Of a stretch of 43,446 nucleotides of DNA, positions 12,169 through 19,975 are shown one piece after another. The translations under genes and the position numbers were made by a program. Source of the stretch: Polyangia bacterium (GTDB lineage: Bacteria; Myxococcota_A; Polyangia; Fen-1088); NCBI GenBank assembly GCA_036268875.1, contig DATATI010000045.1, forward strand, positions 1 to 43,446. Direction: 5' to 3'. Positions within the stretch are counted from its first letter, which is position 1, and each line of letters starts with the position of its first letter. The notes beneath the pieces are model-generated. The model was not told the DNA's origin. It did no database searches and was given only the letters and a program-made list of their open reading frames with translations.

Positions 12169-13500
12169 CTACGGACCGGGGAACGTGCCGGCCGCGTGCC
12201 GCAACGTCAGATCGGCCGCCGCCACGTCATAGTGGGCCTGGGCCAGGGATTCTTGCGACGCCACCAGCGCGTCCTGCGCCTGCAGCAGGTCCACCTGCGT
12301 CACCGTACCGGCCTGGTACTGCACGCGCACCAACTCCAGCGCCTCTTTGGCCAGCTCGACCGAGCGCTCGGCGACTGACAGACCTTGCTGCTTGGTTTCA
12401 AGGTTGCGCCTTCCGTCGGCGAGATCGTCACGGATGCTGTCGCGCAGGAGATCGGCGCGGGCGGCGGTCTCGTCCGCTTGGGCGTCCGCCAGGTGGCGAG
12501 CGGCATCGCGGTTGCCGCCGTCGAAGAGGACCCAGTCCAGTTGCAGGCCCAGCGCCCAAGCATAGCGCTTCTGCGTGAAGCTGTCGTAGTTGAACTTCCT
12601 AGCCAGGCCGAAACCGGACAGCCCTGGGGCCCATCGCCAGCCATTGGCGCGAGCGGTCTCGATCGATGATTTCAGGCCCTCCTCCAGAGCGCGGAACTCC
12701 GGACGCAGTTGCAGCGCGCGATCCAGATCGCGCTCGTCGTGCATCTCCGCCGGCAAATTCGGCGTGACGACCTGGTAGGGCAGCGGTTGTTGAATCAGCG
12801 TCCCCAGCGCCCGATAGGTTTTTTCGCGCCCATAAAGCGCGTCCCGCTCGGCCTGTTGCGCGCGAACCAGCGCCAGCTCGGCGCGATCGACATCGACCTT
12901 GGTGACCGAGCCGGCCGACAAACGCACTTGCGCGTTCTTCAGCGTCGCCTGGGCGACCTGCACGTTCGACCGACGGGCCACCTGCACTTCGTCGGACACG
13001 GCGGCGGCGTAGTAAAGCTGCGCCACGCTCAACAAGACCTGCGCCTCGGAGACCTGAAAATTGGCGTCGGCGGCACGCGCGCCCGCCTTGACCGCTTCCA
13101 GTGCCGGGTACGCAGCCGGAACGATCAGCGGCGCCGTGGCGTTGATGGAACCATCGAGCTGATCTTTCGGCTGGATCAAGAAGGACGACGCCGGCATCGC
13201 GGGCGCTGTTGCGGTGGCGGGCGTCGGCGGAAATCCAAATTCGGCGCTCGCATTGTTGTGCGTGTACTTCCCTTGCGCCGACACCGTCGGGAACAGCGCC
13301 GCCCAGCCTTGCTCAACCGACGCCTGGGCCTGCGCCAGCTTGGCCCGCTCGGCGATCACGCTGCGGTTGCGTTTGCGGGCCATTTGCAGCGTCTGCTCCA
13401 GCGTCAACGTCGGTCCACTCTCCTGAGCCACCGCTCGCGCCGCCGGCCCAGCGGCGACCAGCGCGGTCACCGCCCATGCCATCATCGTTCTTTTTTTCAT
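12169..13500 (-). CDS. TolC-like outer-membrane efflux channel
   Basis: A 443-residue protein with a Sec signal peptide ([21 protein letters not shown]). It consists of two repeats of long helical hairpins, each typical of the outer-membrane efflux protein domain: [30 protein letters not shown] opens the first and [18 protein letters not shown] the second. The end is [34 protein letters not shown], a conserved OEP motif region. It is the third gene of the RND operon, and its ATG overlaps the pump gene's stop by 4 nt. It forms the outer-membrane exit duct for the pump. Confidence 0.92.
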
Positions 13501-16500
13501 GAAGCTGCTTTCACCTGCTGCGGCTGGACGGCGTGTCCGTCAACGTGGGCGGCGATCTCCGGGATGCCGTCGATCTCGTCGGCGCCAGTTTCAGAAGCGG
13601 GGCGGGTTTTGATACGAAGGATCCGACGTGTCCACGCCGACAGATCGTCGAGCAACGAATACACGATCGGCGTCGCCAGCAGGGTCAGCAGCAGCGACAG
13701 GATCTGCCCGCCCACCACCGGACCGGCGGTGGCGCGGTTGAACTCGGCGCCGATGCCTTTCGACGTCACCAGCGGCAGCATACCGGCGACGAAGGCCAGC
13801 GTGGTCATCAAGATGGGCCGCAACCGATCGCGGTTGCCGTGCAGGATGGCGTCGCGCCGGCTGTGCCCCGCTCGGCGCAGCTGGTTGATGTGATCGATCT
13901 GCAGAATCGCGTTCTTCTTTACCACGCCGAACAGAACCAAGATTCCCAGCATGGTGAAGATGTCCAGCGACTGCCCGAACATCAACAGCGACATCAGCGC
14001 GAACGGCACGGTCAGCGGCAAGCCCAGCAAGATGGTGATGGGGTGCAGCCACGACTCGAACTGCGCCGCCAAGATCAAATACATGAAGATAAAGGCCATC
14101 CCGAAGGCCATGACGAACGCTCCGCCGGTGCGCTTGATCTCCTTCGATTGACCGAAGGGGGCGAACCGATACTGCGACGGCAGGTTCAGGCTCTTGACGA
14201 TGCTCTCCATCGCGACGCCGACCTCGTTGGCGCCCACGCCGGGGATGGTGTTGGCGAAGAACGTCACCTGACGCTGGCGGGCCAACCGATCGATCTTCGA
14301 CGGGCCCTCGGCCGCCTTCAGGTCGACGACGTCCAGCAGCGGAACGGCGCCCAGGCGATTGGACGGCACGGTCAGCAAGGCCAGCACGTCGGTGCTGGAC
14401 CGGTACTTCTGGTCGGCGCGCACCAGGATGTCGTATTCGCGCCCGTTTTCTTCATAGCGCGACACCTTCACCCCGCCGATCAACAACTGGCCAGCCGCTG
14501 CCACATCCTGAACGTTGACGCCCAGGTCGGCCGCCTTGCGCCGGTTCACCGCCGCCACCACCTCCGGATTGCCGCTGACGAACGACGTGTCGACGTCCAC
14601 CGCGCCGTGGATCTGCTTCGACTGTTTGACGATCTCTTTCGAATATTGATCCAGCCGATCCAGATCAGGGCCCGTCAGCGTGTACTGCACGGTCGCCGTG
14701 CTGAAGGCGCCGCCGCCGAACGCCGCCACCTGCGACACGCTGGTGCGGTAGGTGGGCGGCAGCTTCTTGATGATGTCGTTGCGGACCTTGTCTTGAAGTT
14801 GATCCTGGGTTGCCTTCCGTTTGTCCGGTGGCACCAGGCGCACGAAGACCGACGCCAGGTTGGCGGTCTTGGTGTTGTTGTCGCCGATGGTCAACATGGT
14901 GGCGGAGACCTCCGGCCATTCGCGCACCTCGCGCGCGATGCGCTCGGCGGCCAGGTTGGTCGACGTCAGGCTGGTGCCTTCTGGCGTGCGCACGCTGATC
15001 TCGAACTGCGCTTCATCGTTCTTGGGCAGAAAGCCCTTGGGCACTGCCTTGCCCAGCGGGGCGATGGAGACCAGCGTCGCGATCGCCGCCAATCCCACGA
15101 TCCAGCGCCGATCGAGAAAGAAGGCCAGCACGCGCGGCAACATGCCTGAGCTGAGCCGAAGCCTCCGACGAAGACTTCCTTCGGTGAACAGAAAGCCCAG
15201 GATGCCCATGTACGCTCTTTCGATGGGTCGATAGAAAATTTCGACCAACCGTTCAAGCGGGTTTTTGCGTCGCTCGGCCGCCGGACGCGGGTCCAGGCGC
15301 AGCCAGCGCGAGGCCAGCATCGGCGTCAGGGTGAAGCTGACGAACAGCGAGATGGCGATCGCCGCGCCCATGGTCAACCCAAAGCTGCGCAAAAATCGCC
15401 CGGGAATGCTGTTCATGAAGGCCACCGGCAAGAACACCGCCAGCAGCGACAGCGTGGTCGCCAGCACTGCCAGGCCGATCTCCTTGGTGGCGTAGATGGC
15501 CGCCGGCATCGGGCGAACCTTCTTCTCCTCGACGTACCGGAAGATGTTCTCCAGCACCACGATGGCGTCGTCGATGACGATGCCGACCGCCAGCGCCAGG
15601 GCCAGCAGCGTGATGGTGTTCAGCGTGAAGTTCATCAGCCACATGGCCATGAAGGTGCCGATGATCGACGTCGGGATGGCCAGCGCGGCGATGATGGTGC
15701 TGCGGAAGTTGCCCAGGAACAGCAGCACCACCAGCGACGCCAGGATGGCGCCCAGCACCAGGTGCTCGCGAACGGCGTCGACGCTGGTGCGCGTGGTCTC
15801 GGTGTTGTCGCGGATGACCGTCAGCTTGGTGCCGCCGGGCAAGGTGGGCTCAAGCTCTTTCATGCGCGTCCGCAGGGCGTCGACGACGGCGACGCTGTTT
15901 TCGCCGGACTGCTTGCGGATCGACAGCACCACCGCTTCTTTGCCGTTGATGTTGGCGGCGGTGTCCGCCTCTTCTTCGCCGTCAACCACGGTGGCCACGT
16001 CGCGCACCATGATCGGGTGGCCGTCGACGTTGCGGATGATGACGTCGCCCAAGGCGTCGACGCTGCCCAGGCGCCCGCGCACGCGGAACGTCAGCCGCTG
16101 GGGGCCGGTCTCGATGGCGCCGCCCGGGGTGCTGACGTTCTGGGCGACGATGGCCCGCTGCACGTCAGTCACCGACAATCCGGTGGCGCGCAACTTGATC
16201 GGATCGACGAACGCCTGGACCTGCCGTTTACGGCCGCCGACGATGGTCACCTGACCAACGCCCGAGATGTTCTCCAGCGCCTGCCGGACCTCGTGGTCGG
16301 CGATCTCCGTGACCTCGCGAACCGGACGCGACGACTCCATGGCCACGAACAGCACCGGCGCGGCGTCCGGATCCAGCTTGCTGATCACCGGCGCCTTGGT
16401 GCCCTCTGGCAAATCCGGCAGGACCGTGCCGACGTGGTCGCGTACCTCTTGCGCGGCAACGTCGACGTTCTTGTCCAGGGTGAACGTGACGAACACCTGC

Positions 16501-16769
16501 GAGACGCCTTCGGTCGACGTGGACCGCAGCTCTTCGATGCCGCCCAGAGTGTTGATCGCCTCTTCAATCTTGTCGGACAGCTCGGTCTCCACCTCTTCCG
16601 GCGCGGCGCCGGGCAGCTGGGTGATGACCGAGATGATCGGGAAGTCGACGTTGGGGAAGCGATCGACGTTCAGGTTTTTGTAACCGACCACGCCGATGAC
16701 GACGATGGTCAGGATCATCACCGTGGCGAAGACGGGACGCCGGACGCAGATACTAGCCAGCCATTGCAT
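13497..16769 (-). CDS. RND-family multidrug efflux pump, HAE1/AcrB type
   Basis: A 1090-residue inner-membrane transporter with the RND layout: one TM helix (FATVMILTIVVIGVVGY), a large periplasmic loop, a TM bundle, then the repeat. The proton-relay DD is in ALAVGIVIDDAIVVLENIF and the matching Lys in LFGVVKKNAILQIDHINQLR. Loop blocks such as LPGAAPEEVETELSDKIEEA and FVSGNPEVVAAVNRRKAADLG fit the HAE1 type. It is slightly longer than the usual 1040, partly through a linker near 490-550. It sits between the adaptor and channel genes. It probably exports hydrophobic drugs or toxic metabolites by proton antiport. Confidence 0.95.
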   Translation of the reverse strand: MQWLASICVRRPVFATVMILTIVVIGVVGYKNLNVDRFPNVDFPIISVITQLPGAAPEEVETELSDKIEEAINTLGGIEELRSTSTEGVSQVFVTFTLDKNVDVAAQEVRDHVGTVLPDLPEGTKAPVISKLDPDAAPVLFVAMESSRPVREVTEIADHEVRQALENISGVGQVTIVGGRKRQVQAFVDPIKLRATGLSVTDVQRAIVAQNVSTPGGAIETGPQRLTFRVRGRLGSVDALGDVIIRNVDGHPIMVRDVATVVDGEEEADTAANINGKEAVVLSIRKQSGENSVAVVDALRTRMKELEPTLPGGTKLTVIRDNTETTRTSVDAVREHLVLGAILASLVVLLFLGNFRSTIIAALAIPTSIIGTFMAMWLMNFTLNTITLLALALAVGIVIDDAIVVLENIFRYVEEKKVRPMPAAIYATKEIGLAVLATTLSLLAVFLPVAFMNSIPGRFLRSFGLTMGAAIAISLFVSFTLTPMLASRWLRLDPRPAAERRKNPLERLVEIFYRPIERAYMGILGFLFTEGSLRRRLRLSSGMLPRVLAFFLDRRWIVGLAAIATLVSIAPLGKAVPKGFLPKNDEAQFEISVRTPEGTSLTSTNLAAERIAREVREWPEVSATMLTIGDNNTKTANLASVFVRLVPPDKRKATQDQLQDKVRNDIIKKLPPTYRTSVSQVAAFGGGAFSTATVQYTLTGPDLDRLDQYSKEIVKQSKQIHGAVDVDTSFVSGNPEVVAAVNRRKAADLGVNVQDVAAAGQLLIGGVKVSRYEENGREYDILVRADQKYRSSTDVLALLTVPSNRLGAVPLLDVVDLKAAEGPSKIDRLARQRQVTFFANTIPGVGANEVGVAMESIVKSLNLPSQYRFAPFGQSKEIKRTGGAFVMAFGMAFIFMYLILAAQFESWLHPITILLGLPLTVPFALMSLLMFGQSLDIFTMLGILVLFGVVKKNAILQIDHINQLRRAGHSRRDAILHGNRDRLRPILMTTLAFVAGMLPLVTSKGIGAEFNRATAGPVVGGQILSLLLTLLATPIVYSLLDDLSAWTRRILRIKTRPASETGADEIDGIPEIAAHVDGHAVQPQQVKAAS

Positions 16770-16784
16770 GAAAAGCCGCCTTTC

Positions 16785-17894
16785 TTACTCGAAACGCGCG
16801 CCGTCGTGGACGGCCGGGCTCAGGCTGGCCACCACGCGCTCGCCTTTGTTGACGCCCGAAAGGACGGTGACGAATCCTCCCTTGGCTTCTCCCACCTGCA
16901 CCAGGCGTTCTTCCAGGCGCTTGTCGGTGGCGATGTAGATCCGTTTGGTTGCCCCTTCGTCGCGGATGGCGGCGGCGGGAACAACCAGAGCCGGACGCTC
17001 GCCGAGATCCAACCGGGCGACCACGAACAGACCCGGCCGCAGCTTGCGGTCGGGATTGTCCACCACCGCTTCGATGATCAGATCGCGGCTGGCTCGGCGC
17101 ACGGCCGGTCCGACATAACGAACGATGGCCCGCAGCGGCGGCCCCGACTCGTCGTTGGCGGTGCGAAATTCCACCGCCATGTTCTTGCCGATCAATTGCA
17201 CGTACGTCTCTGGCACTGTCAGCTCCAGCCGCAGCGGATTCACCTCCAGCAGGGTGGCGATCTTGGTTCCCGGCTGCACGAACTCGCCGGCGGTCACGGT
17301 TCGCTCGGCGACCAGACCGGAGAAGGGCGCGCGGATGTCGGTGTCGGCCAGCGCGGTGGCCGTCGAAGCCTTGCGGGCAGCGGCGGCCGCCGACGTCCAA
17401 TTGGCGGTCGCGCAACCGGCGTGGGCCTTGTCGTAGTCCACGCGCGAGATGGCCCCTTTTTCGAACAAGTTTTGCGTGCGATCGCAATCCGTCTTGGCCA
17501 GCGCCTGCTGGGTGCGGCTGGATTCCAGCTGGGCCGACGCTTCGGCCGCCGCCGACTCCAGCGTGCGGCGATCCAGCTTGGCCAGCAAGGCGCCCTTCTT
17601 CACATAACTGCCGCGCTCAACGAACGTCGCCAGCACCTTGCCCGACGCGCCGGCGGCGACATCCGACTCTTCGTTGGGCGTCAGCGTCCCCGAAAGGGTC
17701 ACAAAGCGCGGCATCGGCCGCTCGCCCACCGCAGCAAAGGCGACCTTGATGGGCGCCTCGGCGTCGGGACCGGCGTTCTTTTCGGCCGTCCCCTGCTCCA
17801 GCGCGGCGCCATTGGCTCCCTTCCCGCAACCAACCGCCGCCAGCGCGGCCACCAACACCAAATAGCGAACCAACGGTCCCAGCAGTTTATCCAT
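16785..17894 (-). CDS. RND efflux periplasmic adaptor (membrane fusion protein), lipoprotein
   Basis: A 369-residue adaptor from ATG 17894. A GTG just before it is the alternative, but AGAAGGA sits 4 nt before the ATG and only 1 nt before the GTG. The signal ends AALAAVGC with Cys23 acylated. The lipoyl/biotinyl half-motifs are GASGKVLATFVERGSYVKKGALLAKLD and DIRAPFSGLVAERTVTAGEFVQPG, flanking a helical hairpin (AEASAQLESSRTQQALAKTD). Beta-barrel and membrane-proximal domains follow. It links the pump to the TolC-like channel. It is the first gene of the operon, 15 nt before the pump, and is controlled from the intergenic region shared with the MarR gene. Confidence 0.92.
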   Translation of the reverse strand: MDKLLGPLVRYLVLVAALAAVGCGKGANGAALEQGTAEKNAGPDAEAPIKVAFAAVGERPMPRFVTLSGTLTPNEESDVAAGASGKVLATFVERGSYVKKGALLAKLDRRTLESAAAEASAQLESSRTQQALAKTDCDRTQNLFEKGAISRVDYDKAHAGCATANWTSAAAAARKASTATALADTDIRAPFSGLVAERTVTAGEFVQPGTKIATLLEVNPLRLELTVPETYVQLIGKNMAVEFRTANDESGPPLRAIVRYVGPAVRRASRDLIIEAVVDNPDRKLRPGLFVVARLDLGERPALVVPAAAIRDEGATKRIYIATDKRLEERLVQVGEAKGGFVTVLSGVNKGERVVASLSPAVHDGARFE

Positions 17895-17898
17895 CACG

Positions 17899-17905
17899 TC
17901 CTTCT
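17899..17905 (-). promoter_or_regulatory. Ribosome binding site of the efflux adaptor gene
   Basis: AGAAGGA on the minus strand, 4 nt before the ATG at 17894. It decides between the adjacent GTG and ATG starts. Confidence 0.6.
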
Positions 17906-17986
17906 TTCAAGTGCCTGCGGCCACGTGCGTCCTCACGCGGCTGTGGGGCGGTACCGACCCGGCAACTTTGCTTTTTCGCGATTGCG

Positions 17987-18016
17987 TTCATAACGCGAGA
18001 AACTTTAGGTTGTCAA
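17987..18016 (-). promoter_or_regulatory. Promoter of the RND efflux operon
   Basis: On the minus strand a perfect TTGACA -35 (18016-18011), an 18-bp spacer and TATGAA (17992-17987). It gives a leader of roughly 85 nt before the adaptor ATG. The -35 lies inside the palindrome shared with the divergent MarR promoter. Confidence 0.55.
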
Positions 18017-18021
18017 CAATC
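18008..18021. promoter_or_regulatory. Candidate MarR operator (14-bp imperfect palindrome)
   Basis: GGTTGT-CA-ACAATC: arms match at five of six pairs around a CA centre. It covers the -35 boxes of both divergent promoters, so a MarR dimer bound here would block both. MarR sites of this kind (TTG-rich arms) are well known, but binding by this protein is inferred. Confidence 0.5.
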
Positions 18022-18038
18022 GGTTTGTTAAATAGTAT
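18010..18038 (+). promoter_or_regulatory. Promoter of the marR-type gene
   Basis: TTGTCA (18010-18015), a 17-bp spacer and TAGTAT (18033-18038). The predicted transcript start is at about 18045, the GTG start codon itself, suggesting a leaderless message. Confidence 0.5.
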
Positions 18039-18044
18039 GAAGGA

Positions 18045-18524
18045 GTGATTAAAACAGCCGCCGCCAGTGCGGGCTCCGATGCCCCGTCGCGCGCCAAGGT
18101 TACAGCCGAGGAAGCGGCCCGTCGGGCCTGGCACCTTCTTGGCGAGGTGGCGCTGACGTTGCGTGCGGCGTGGGTGGACATCGCCGCCGAGTTCGATCTG
18201 ACGCCGGCGCAAGCGCTGGCGCTCAGACGACTGGAGCCGAACACGCCGCTGCCCATGAACACGCTGGCCGAGGCGATGCTGTGCGATGCCTCGAACGTCA
18301 CCGGGATCGTCGACAAGCTGGAGGCGCGCGGCCTCATCGAACGCCGGGCCATCGAGCACGATCGGCGGGTGAAGATGCTGGTGGTCACCAAGCGCGGCGA
18401 GGATCTGCGCCGGAAATTCCTGCAGCGCAGCTCGCAACCGCCGCCGCTGGTCGCCACCTTGACCAGCGAGGATCACCGCCAGCTGAGCGAGATCCTCGAG
18501 CGGTTGCTGGCGGCGCGGGCTTAG
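18045..18524 (+). CDS. MarR-family transcriptional regulator
   Basis: A 159-residue regulator. The winged helix-turn-helix spans about 65-125: PMNTLAEAMLCDASNVTGIVDKLEARGLIERR is the recognition-helix block and HDRRVKMLVVTKRGEDL the wing. N- and C-terminal helices would form the dimer interface. The start is GTG at 18045. A GGAG directly abuts it, too close for a normal ribosome site, and the promoter predicts a leaderless mRNA, so GTG as first codon is plausible. It is divergent from the RND operon across 150 bp with a palindrome over both -35 boxes. I infer that it represses itself and the pump, with release by a pumped ligand. Confidence 0.9.
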   Translation: MIKTAAASAGSDAPSRAKVTAEEAARRAWHLLGEVALTLRAAWVDIAAEFDLTPAQALALRRLEPNTPLPMNTLAEAMLCDASNVTGIVDKLEARGLIERRAIEHDRRVKMLVVTKRGEDLRRKFLQRSSQPPPLVATLTSEDHRQLSEILERLLAARA

Positions 18525-18603: not shown

Positions 18604-19077
18604 CTATGAAGCGGCGGCGGGAGCGGCGGCGGCAGCGGCGGGAGCGGCGGGAGCGGCGGCGGCCTTCTTGCGGCGGACGATCTTCTTGCGGGCCTTGGCG
18701 GCCACGCGGCGCTGCTTCTTCGGAGCGGTGGTGCCATCCATCTTCTTCGCGCGGCGCGCCTCGCGGAATCTCCTGATCTTCAATTTGGGAAGATCTTTGT
18801 GCTTCGCGCAGACCATTCCAAAGACAGGCGCCGCGGGATTCGTGCAACCAGGCACCGGGCACAGTTGCTTGGGGGCTTTCTTTCGTGGCTTCTTCTTCGG
18901 CGTCCAGGCGGCGGACAACGCCGCCGACTTTGGCGGGCGACCACGGCGTGCCGGAATCTGGCCATTACCTCCCAGGGCGGCAGCGACAGCGTGGCGGGCG
19001 CGTTCCATGATTTGCGCCTCAATGACCTGCGCCAACTGATTGGTGAAATTCTCGACAACAGTGCGGAGTTCAGACAT
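18604..19077 (-). CDS. AT-hook and zinc-finger protein with Lys/Ala-rich tail
   Basis: 157 residues from ATG 19077 (an ATG three codons upstream is possible; the frame opens further up, inside the neighbouring upstream region). Residues 1-35 are helical (VVENFTNQLAQVIEAQIMERAR). An AT-hook core RRGRPPK is at 44-50, then a basic linker. A zinc-binding C73-X4-C78-X11-C90-X2-H93 motif follows (CPVPGCTN ... GMVCAKH), then a Lys/Arg-rich segment and an Ala/Pro tail. Together this indicates a DNA-binding, probably nucleoid-associated protein. I recall similar CPVPGC/MVC.KHKD proteins in Myxococcota but no established function. It is divergent from the SRPBCC gene across 109 bp. Confidence 0.8.
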   Translation of the reverse strand: MSELRTVVENFTNQLAQVIEAQIMERARHAVAAALGGNGQIPARRGRPPKSAALSAAWTPKKKPRKKAPKQLCPVPGCTNPAAPVFGMVCAKHKDLPKLKIRRFREARRAKKMDGTTAPKKQRRVAAKARKKIVRRKKAAAAPAAPAAAAAAPAAAS

Positions 19078-19084
19078 GCGCGGC

Positions 19085-19090
19085 ATTGTA
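19085..19090 (-). promoter_or_regulatory. Possible -10 of the AT-hook/zinc-finger gene
   Basis: TACAAT on the minus strand, 7 nt before the ATG at 19077, one base from consensus. No clear -35 is seen. If real, the transcript would start at or next to the ATG. Confidence 0.4.
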
Positions 19091-19172
19091 AACGAGGCCT
19101 TCTGCAATTGCAGCCACAACCTCGAACATTTTTTTGTGTTAGCTTCGCGCCCGGCCCGACCAGGCACAAATT

Positions 19173-19180
19173 GGGGGAGG
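19173..19180 (+). promoter_or_regulatory. Ribosome binding site fixing the SRPBCC gene start
   Basis: GGGGGAGG, 6 nt before ATG 19187. It selects this start over the ATG at 19040, which would lie inside the divergent gene. Confidence 0.7.
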
Positions 19181-19186
19181 TGTCGC

Positions 19187-19975
19187 ATGGCATACGAAAG
19201 TCTGTCTCTGTCCGAATTGATCCCGGCAACCGAAGAAGAGATCTATTCCGCTTGGCTGAGCAGCGACCAGCACTCCGCTTTCACCGGCGACGAAGCGTCG
19301 ATCGATCCAGTGATCGGGGGAAAACACATTGCTTATGGCGGCTATGCCCAAGGGGCGATCGTCGATTTACAGCCCAGCCGCCGCATCGTACAGACCTGGC
19401 GAACCAGCGACTTTCCGGAAGGCAGCCCGGATTCCCGTCTGGAAGTAACCCTAGAGCCGACAGTGGGCGGCACCATGGTGACGGTGCTGCACACAGAGAT
19501 CCCCGAGGGCCAAAGCGACAGTTACCGAGAAGGCTGGGTTAAATACTATTTTGACCCTCTCAAGAAATATTTCGCCGAAAAGAGCGGGGACGACGCCGAG
19601 GACGTGCTCGACGACCTGTTGGCGACGGCGCCCGCCAATGGTATTTCGTCCCACAACGGTGGCCCGGCCAAGTTGACGGGCCGCGCAAAGAAGGCGCCCA
19701 CCCCCCAACCAAAATCCGCCAAAGAGACGGCAAAGGTCCAGCCGAAAGCAAAACCGAAAGCCAAATCAAACGTCAAGGCCAAGGTCAAGGCCAAGGCCAA
19801 GCCAAAGCCCAAAGCGAAGCCGAAGACAAAAACGAAAACCAAGGCCAAATTGACGGCAAAATCCGCCAAAAAGCCGACGCCCAAACGCAGACCGGCGGCC
19901 CGGATGGCGGCGAAGAAAGCAACCCGCGGCCGAGAGAGCAAATCACCGGCGCGGTCCAAGAAAAAGAAACGGTAG
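19187..19975 (+). CDS. SRPBCC (AHSA1-type) domain protein with histone-H1-like tail
   Basis: 262 residues from ATG 19187. Residues 1-135 match an AHSA1-like SRPBCC fold: the start helix/strand (IPATEEEIYSAWLSSDQHSAFTG), the glycine-rich turn VIGGKHIAYGGYAQGAIVDLQP, RRIVQTWRTSDFPEG, then LEVTLEP, GGTMVTVLHTEIPEG and the C-terminal helix REGWVKYYFDPLKKYFAE. From about 166 to the end the protein is Lys/Pro/Ala-rich (KAKPKPKAKPKTKTKTK, AKKPTPKRRPAARMAAKK), like histone H1 tails. The tail would bind nucleic acid. The fusion suggests a ligand-responsive or co-chaperone domain tethered to DNA, which is an inference. It is divergent from the AT-hook/zinc-finger gene. Confidence 0.8.
   Translation: MAYESLSLSELIPATEEEIYSAWLSSDQHSAFTGDEASIDPVIGGKHIAYGGYAQGAIVDLQPSRRIVQTWRTSDFPEGSPDSRLEVTLEPTVGGTMVTVLHTEIPEGQSDSYREGWVKYYFDPLKKYFAEKSGDDAEDVLDDLLATAPANGISSHNGGPAKLTGRAKKAPTPQPKSAKETAKVQPKAKPKAKSNVKAKVKAKAKPKPKAKPKTKTKTKAKLTAKSAKKPTPKRRPAARMAAKKATRGRESKSPARSKKKKR
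19745..19975. repeat. Low-complexity Lys/Pro/Ala-coding tract
   Basis: Short imperfect repeats of AAGGCCAAG / AAGCCAAAG type encode the H1-like tail. The A-rich codon use stands out against the GC-rich surroundings and is prone to slippage. Confidence 0.6.

Follow-up and report, generated by a model that had tools for sequence, protein, structure and literature searches.

A putative nucleoid tether on a family of Lys-tailed Aha1-type SRPBCC proteins in Myxococcota

The C-terminal domain of Aha1/AHSA1 (Pfam PF08327) is represented by solved structures from human (8z3h, 1x53 and 7dme) and from bacterial Aha1-type proteins (2m89 and 8es5), and its fold is known mainly as that of an Hsp90 helper. 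The closest described architectures with long Lys-rich tails are the KPAA-tail proteins AlgP and PhaF of Pseudomonas; the folded part of PhaF is a phasin, unlike the SRPBCC domain of the protein presented here. As described in PMC9239181, AlgP and PhaF consist of a compact N-terminal part and a long, disordered Lys/Ala/Pro tail that resembles the tail of histone H1. Such KPAA tails are thought to keep the two proteins at the nucleoid or at a different polyanion. The protein presented here has the same layout, with an SRPBCC domain where the folded part of AlgP is helical.

We analysed a 43,446-nucleotide stretch of DNA (the window) from a soil myxobacterium, which is contig C45 of the draft genome G000 (6.15 Mb, 97% complete). 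It holds two divergent genes with the following features:

18604..19077, minus strand: AT-hook gene, 157-aa product; member of a separate, dispersed family, neighbour only
Within the AT-hook protein: N-terminal 34-residue helix, RGRPPK, C-X4-C-X11-C-X2-H, basic helix, then a K/R and A/P tail
19078..19186, no strand: 109-bp intergenic gap between the divergent start codons (from the coordinates)
19187..19975, plus strand: SRPBCC gene, 262-aa product (translation, Pfam, structure match, predicted model)
19187..19585, plus strand: Aha1 C-terminal-type SRPBCC domain, residues 1-133 (family profile match, AF2 pLDDT 97.2)
Within the SRPBCC gene, plus strand: short acidic linker, residues 134-155, net charge -6
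19652..19972, plus strand: Lys-rich, H1-like tail, codons 156-262 (composition; tail conserved as a feature)

Everything that the initial annotation had recorded at this site, namely the coordinates, the strands, the 109-bp gap, the AT-hook, the C-X4-C-X11-C-X2-H motif and the Lys tail, was found to be present. Both genes are real, since the PF08327 match lies well over its cut-off and the Cys/His positions of the AT-hook protein are invariant in 16/16 aligned relatives.

Anatomy and predicted fold of the SRPBCC protein

The SRPBCC assignment is secure: residues 14-129 of the protein matched Pfam AHSA1 (PF08327) at 69.7 bits, where the cut-off is 22.1. The tail (107 residues, 156-262) contains 34 K, 8 R, 20 A and 13 P and carries a net charge of +40; judged by this composition, it is long and probably disordered.

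Nearest among solved structures in sequence-profile searches was the human AHSA1 C-terminal domain (8z3h, E 3.3e-22; 1x53, E 3.8e-22; 7dme, E 3e-21). The AF2 model of the domain (36 sequences) reached a pLDDT of 97.2 and a pTM of 0.90. Foldseek aligned this model with 8z3h at TM 0.92, and VIA gave a Z of 22.1 with an rmsd of 2.0 over 132 residues, while the plant PR-10/Bet v 1 ligand-binding proteins ranked behind, with a Z of about 14. The predicted fold, shared with AHSA1 along the domain's full length, belongs to the Aha1 C-terminal type, a narrower description than "ligand-binding". The initial annotation had inferred that the pair could tie a small-molecule signal to nucleoid state; with the SRPBCC domain refined to the Aha1 C-terminal type, such a signal is only one option among others.

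In the profile alignment, W71, R72, W117 and Y121 are common to human AHSA1 and the SRPBCC protein of the window, and W71, W117 and Y121 are kept in 70/72, 72/72 and 72/72 tailed rows, respectively. Two further positions of the bacterial family, H29 and H102, correspond to V and G in the human protein. H29 occurs in 71/72 tailed rows and H102 in 62/72, a count perhaps lowered by alignment shifts. Among untailed homologues, H29 was found in 21/27 class rows and in 37/37 out-of-class rows. Being present in untailed proteins too, H29 and H102 mark the wider bacterial group and not the tailed one.

Because the nearest fold and sequence are those of Aha1 C-terminal domains, several of them solved bound to Hsp90, the protein could be a co-chaperone of the bacterial Hsp90 (HtpG), its domain acting on HtpG and its tail replacing the Aha1 N-domain. 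However, the genome of the window, a 97% complete draft, yielded 0 candidates for HSP90 (PF00183), and the family was undetected in 35/72 genomes with a tailed SRPBCC gene, the window's included, although in drafts an absence may be a gap. Across the class (317 genomes), Hsp90 and the SRPBCC family are found together less often, not more often, than expected, with Hsp90 in 56/104 genomes that have the SRPBCC family versus 153/213 that do not (odds ratio 0.46, uncorrected for relatedness). An Aha1_N domain is also absent: PF08327 was the sole Pfam match in the SRPBCC protein at E <= 1, and the domain begins at residue 1-5. Thus, where human AHSA1 has an N-domain and an Hsp90 partner, the protein of the window has a Lys-rich tail and no detected Hsp90 in its genome. 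We consider the co-chaperone role very improbable for the family and reject it for the window's genome, where PF00183 finds nothing. As half of the tailed genomes are without detectable Hsp90, these sequence data indicate that the tailed protein is not simply an Hsp90 helper.

Distribution of the Lys-rich tail

A family profile (E <= 1e-10) detected the SRPBCC family in 104/317 genomes of the class. For scoring of tails, 114 class loci were entered, three weak ones were left out (G079:C237, G309:C278 and G219:C61), and a threshold of E <= 1e-20 kept 109 rows, of which 7 are partial and not scorable. The 87 rows with at least 125 bits comprise 63 with a long C-terminal tail, 4 with a short one, 5 with an N-terminal tail, 12 with none, 2 running off the contig and 1 partial. 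Tails are thus found in 72/86 full-length class loci at this score, and the fusion of an SRPBCC domain to an H1-like tail, first remarked on in the window, is genuine and repeated. Below 125 bits (22 rows: 15 untailed, 6 partial, 1 off the contig) none of the 15 scorable rows is tailed, a contrast that is partly circular since the threshold of 125 bits and the definition of a tail were chosen after the data had been seen and 8 of the 10 sequences in the profile are tailed. Two further contrasts are less circular. A phylum search (E <= 1e-30) matched 79/377 genomes, 37 of them outside the class, and the tail was present in 0/37 of these out-of-class homologues. Of nine genomes with two copies, seven combine a tailed copy with an untailed one, and in the remaining two a contig end hides one tail.

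Among the 12/86 high-scoring class loci that are untailed, two terminate in 10-11 basic residues and a third in a basic stretch of 26 residues; because such loci exist, the tail is not indispensable. Tailed SRPBCC genes span 12 family-level groups. On a poorly resolved FastTree tree of 139 rows, the C-tail label requires 12 changes versus 46 in shuffles, and N-terminal tails at least 2. When predicted ORFs from comparable sequence were taken as background, 7/270 ended in such a tail, six of them from the SRPBCC family and the seventh of VOC type (11/239 under a looser tail criterion). As six of the seven tailed ORFs belong to one family, the tail is, on these counts, more than chance.

The tails could nevertheless be a near-neutral low-complexity expansion of GC-rich myxobacterial genomes with no specific role. 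Their C-terminal forms range from 74 to 334 residues and vary widely in sequence, and low-complexity regions are frequent in myxobacteria generally, as stated in PMC6821194, so that part of the tail pattern may be a lineage habit. Set against this, tails are rare in neighbouring ORFs, second copies in the same genomes are untailed (7/9 two-copy genomes), the tails occur in the 12 family-level groups mentioned above, and N-terminal tails appear on at least two branches. We therefore regard an expansion without a role as highly unlikely.

Several observations accompany these counts. The same SRPBCC domain carries an N-terminal Lys-rich tail at loci L119, L191, L208, L209 and L212. In many members (L094, L098, L164, L178 and others) a short acidic run, EEDEDEEE-like, lies between the domain and the Lys tail, giving an acidic-then-basic charge pattern. 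Used as a query against its own genome, the tail returned only itself and one chance match, composition bias hiding such tails; DNA patterns outperformed the tail-sequence query. A search for a conserved neighbourhood of the SRPBCC gene gave neighbours common to three loci only (L059, L060 and L064), unlike the context in the window; the downstream genes there, named by eye, are presumably riboflavin-synthesis genes.

The SRPBCC gene is thus a member of a large family across the window's class of Myxococcota. The family is apparently undescribed, as a search of titles and abstract starts in the open-licence literature returned no description of a Lys-tailed AHSA1/SRPBCC protein. The fold and the type of tail were already known; the fusion, its class-wide spread and its independence from Hsp90 were absent from what that search returned.

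The divergent neighbour

The second gene encodes a small basic protein with an RGRPPK AT-hook core at residues 45-50, in a basic context, and with C73, C78, C90 and H93 as potential metal ligands. Its relatives keep the N-terminal helix, the AT-hook region and the four Cys/His positions (16/16). No Pfam or NCBIfam family scored above cut-off, Pfam AT_hook matched 1/16 family members (E 0.036), and CarD/CdnL or H-NS gave no Pfam match. The predicted model was poor (pTM 0.34), and a fold search with it found no PDB match at E <= 0.001, the matches to S20 and HNH being weak. The protein resembles CarD of Myxococcus (AT-hook, HMGA-like) and the silencers H-NS, Lsr2 and MvaT in being small and basic with an AT-hook core, and also in an N-terminal helix that could oligomerise. 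Unlike them, it has the C-X4-C-X11-C-X2-H motif and belongs to a multi-copy, dispersed family. From its parts we infer a small, minor-groove-binding nucleoid protein that would act independently.

At E <= 1e-3 the AT-hook family was found in 42/317 class genomes, many of the matches outside the window's bacterial family being weak and confined to the N-terminal part. Within that bacterial family it is present in 17/18 genomes, in 1-8 copies. The AT-hook family is dispersed and largely confined to one bacterial family. Its public relatives (36 loci) all lie in MAGs titled Myxococcales, Myxococcota, Deltaproteobacteria or Proteobacteria. No neighbourhood of the AT-hook gene is widely shared among the loci compared; the largest non-self cluster (7 loci) consists of two kinds of ABC-transporter ORFs at differing distances. 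Elsewhere its neighbours are ORFs that we take, from their sequences, to be ABC transporter, FlhA-like and metallophosphatase-like.

Variation within the family was also seen. A second AT-hook-family gene of the same genome (L086, 4497-4865, minus strand) encodes an N-terminal helix and two AT-hook-like motifs, RGPGRPPG/KRGRPPG, lacks the Cys/His motif and has a different C-terminal segment (LHGQYIGRLRSL...). Paralogues with the AT-hook and zinc motif (L080, L081, L083 and others) have an extra conserved C-terminal segment (ARKLQGQYLGAL...), which is missing from the window copy and resembles the end of the L086 protein.

The initial annotation had read the two genes as a linked pair that could tie a small-molecule signal to the state of the nucleoid, with conserved adjacency in relatives as its test. 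Their divergent arrangement 109 bp apart and the basic regions of nucleic-acid-binding type in both products speak for such a link. However, when both family profiles were run over the same 317 class genomes and the lists compared, 13 genomes held both families, and the genes are adjacent in only one of them, the window's own. Both lie on one contig in 3/13: in the window's genome they are neighbours, and in G314 and G315 they are separated by 1.8 and 1.9 Mb. Four further genomes (G001, G003, G006 and G043) have them on separate contigs, and the better SRPBCC match there is flanked on both sides by at least 3.9 kb of contig. Unrelated genes adjoin the AT-hook gene elsewhere, and the two families (SRPBCC in 104/317, AT-hook in 42/317) occupy largely different genomes. 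A scan of the gap (19078-19186) for sigma-70-type promoters found no site. As the genes are non-adjacent in relatives, the sequence comparison largely refutes the linked pair, which we now find barely credible.

Beside the two genes the window shows a usual efflux arrangement: ORFs read by eye as an RND-type pump and a membrane-fusion-type protein (13497-18524, the MarR gene included) and, divergent from them, a gene of the MarR family (18045-18524; Pfam MarR, E 4e-14).

Putative role of the tail

Taken together, we give a probability of roughly 60% to an explanation in which the two genes are chance neighbours, the AT-hook protein is independent, and the SRPBCC family has acquired a Lys/Ala/Pro tail that tethers its domain to the nucleoid or another polyanion. 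From the anatomy of the SRPBCC protein onwards, the steps of this explanation are inferred. A stand-alone domain of the Aha1 C-terminal type would have acquired the long tail in the window's Myxococcota class. By analogy with AlgP and PhaF, the tail would be an unstructured polycation that keeps the domain at the nucleoid or at a different polyanion, for instance polyphosphate or RNA. So placed, the domain may bind something exposed and hydrophobic, either a polypeptide client or a small ligand. The tether is suggested because the Hsp90 role fails for the window's genome and PHA synthase is undetected there (no PhaC_N match). A client is a reasonable option since human Aha1 has a chaperone-like activity of its own, as reported in PMC8037086.

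Alternatively, the target of the tail could be polyphosphate, RNA or the ribosome instead of DNA, which would make the protein one of stress or of granules. In favour of this alternative, any polyanion can be bound by a Lys-rich tail; such tails can also have ribosomal, membrane or RNA functions. According to PMC9239181, AlgP, with its Lys/Pro/Ala tail, localises to polyphosphate granules, and the tail is needed for their spacing. PHA granules, the cargo of PhaF, are unlikely in the window's genome for lack of a PhaC_N match, and so is a PHA-granule tether. Overall, we judge this alternative to be unlikely.

The tail is also found on another kind of domain. The seventh tailed ORF of the background set encodes a protein of the window's own genome (G000:C91:212188-212715, minus strand; L086, 7188-7715) with a 55-residue Lys/Ala tail, which we take from its sequence to be of VOC type. 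The domain of this protein matched in 130/309 class genomes. Among 30 of these matches, a Lys tail is present in 6, the five best matches included (L291-L295 and L309 among the loci), and the other 24 end <=4 residues past the domain. A tailed SRPBCC gene also occurs in 4/6 of the tailed-VOC genomes (G000, G001, G043 and G203). Tentatively, and with more doubt than confidence, the class may add one interchangeable H1-like polycation tail, N- or C-terminally, to small binding domains that are unrelated to each other (Aha1-type SRPBCC, VOC) and in this way bring them to the nucleoid or to a different polyanion; for the Aha1-type members this would mean binding proteins that are independent of Hsp90 and tethered to the nucleoid, chaperone-like or ligand-sensing.

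The same kind of tail on a pair of unrelated domains would point to a targeting device of general use in myxobacteria. A class-wide family that combines the Aha1-type fold with a histone-like tail, with half of its genomes lacking detectable Hsp90, offers a natural setting for asking what the Aha1-type domain does on its own.
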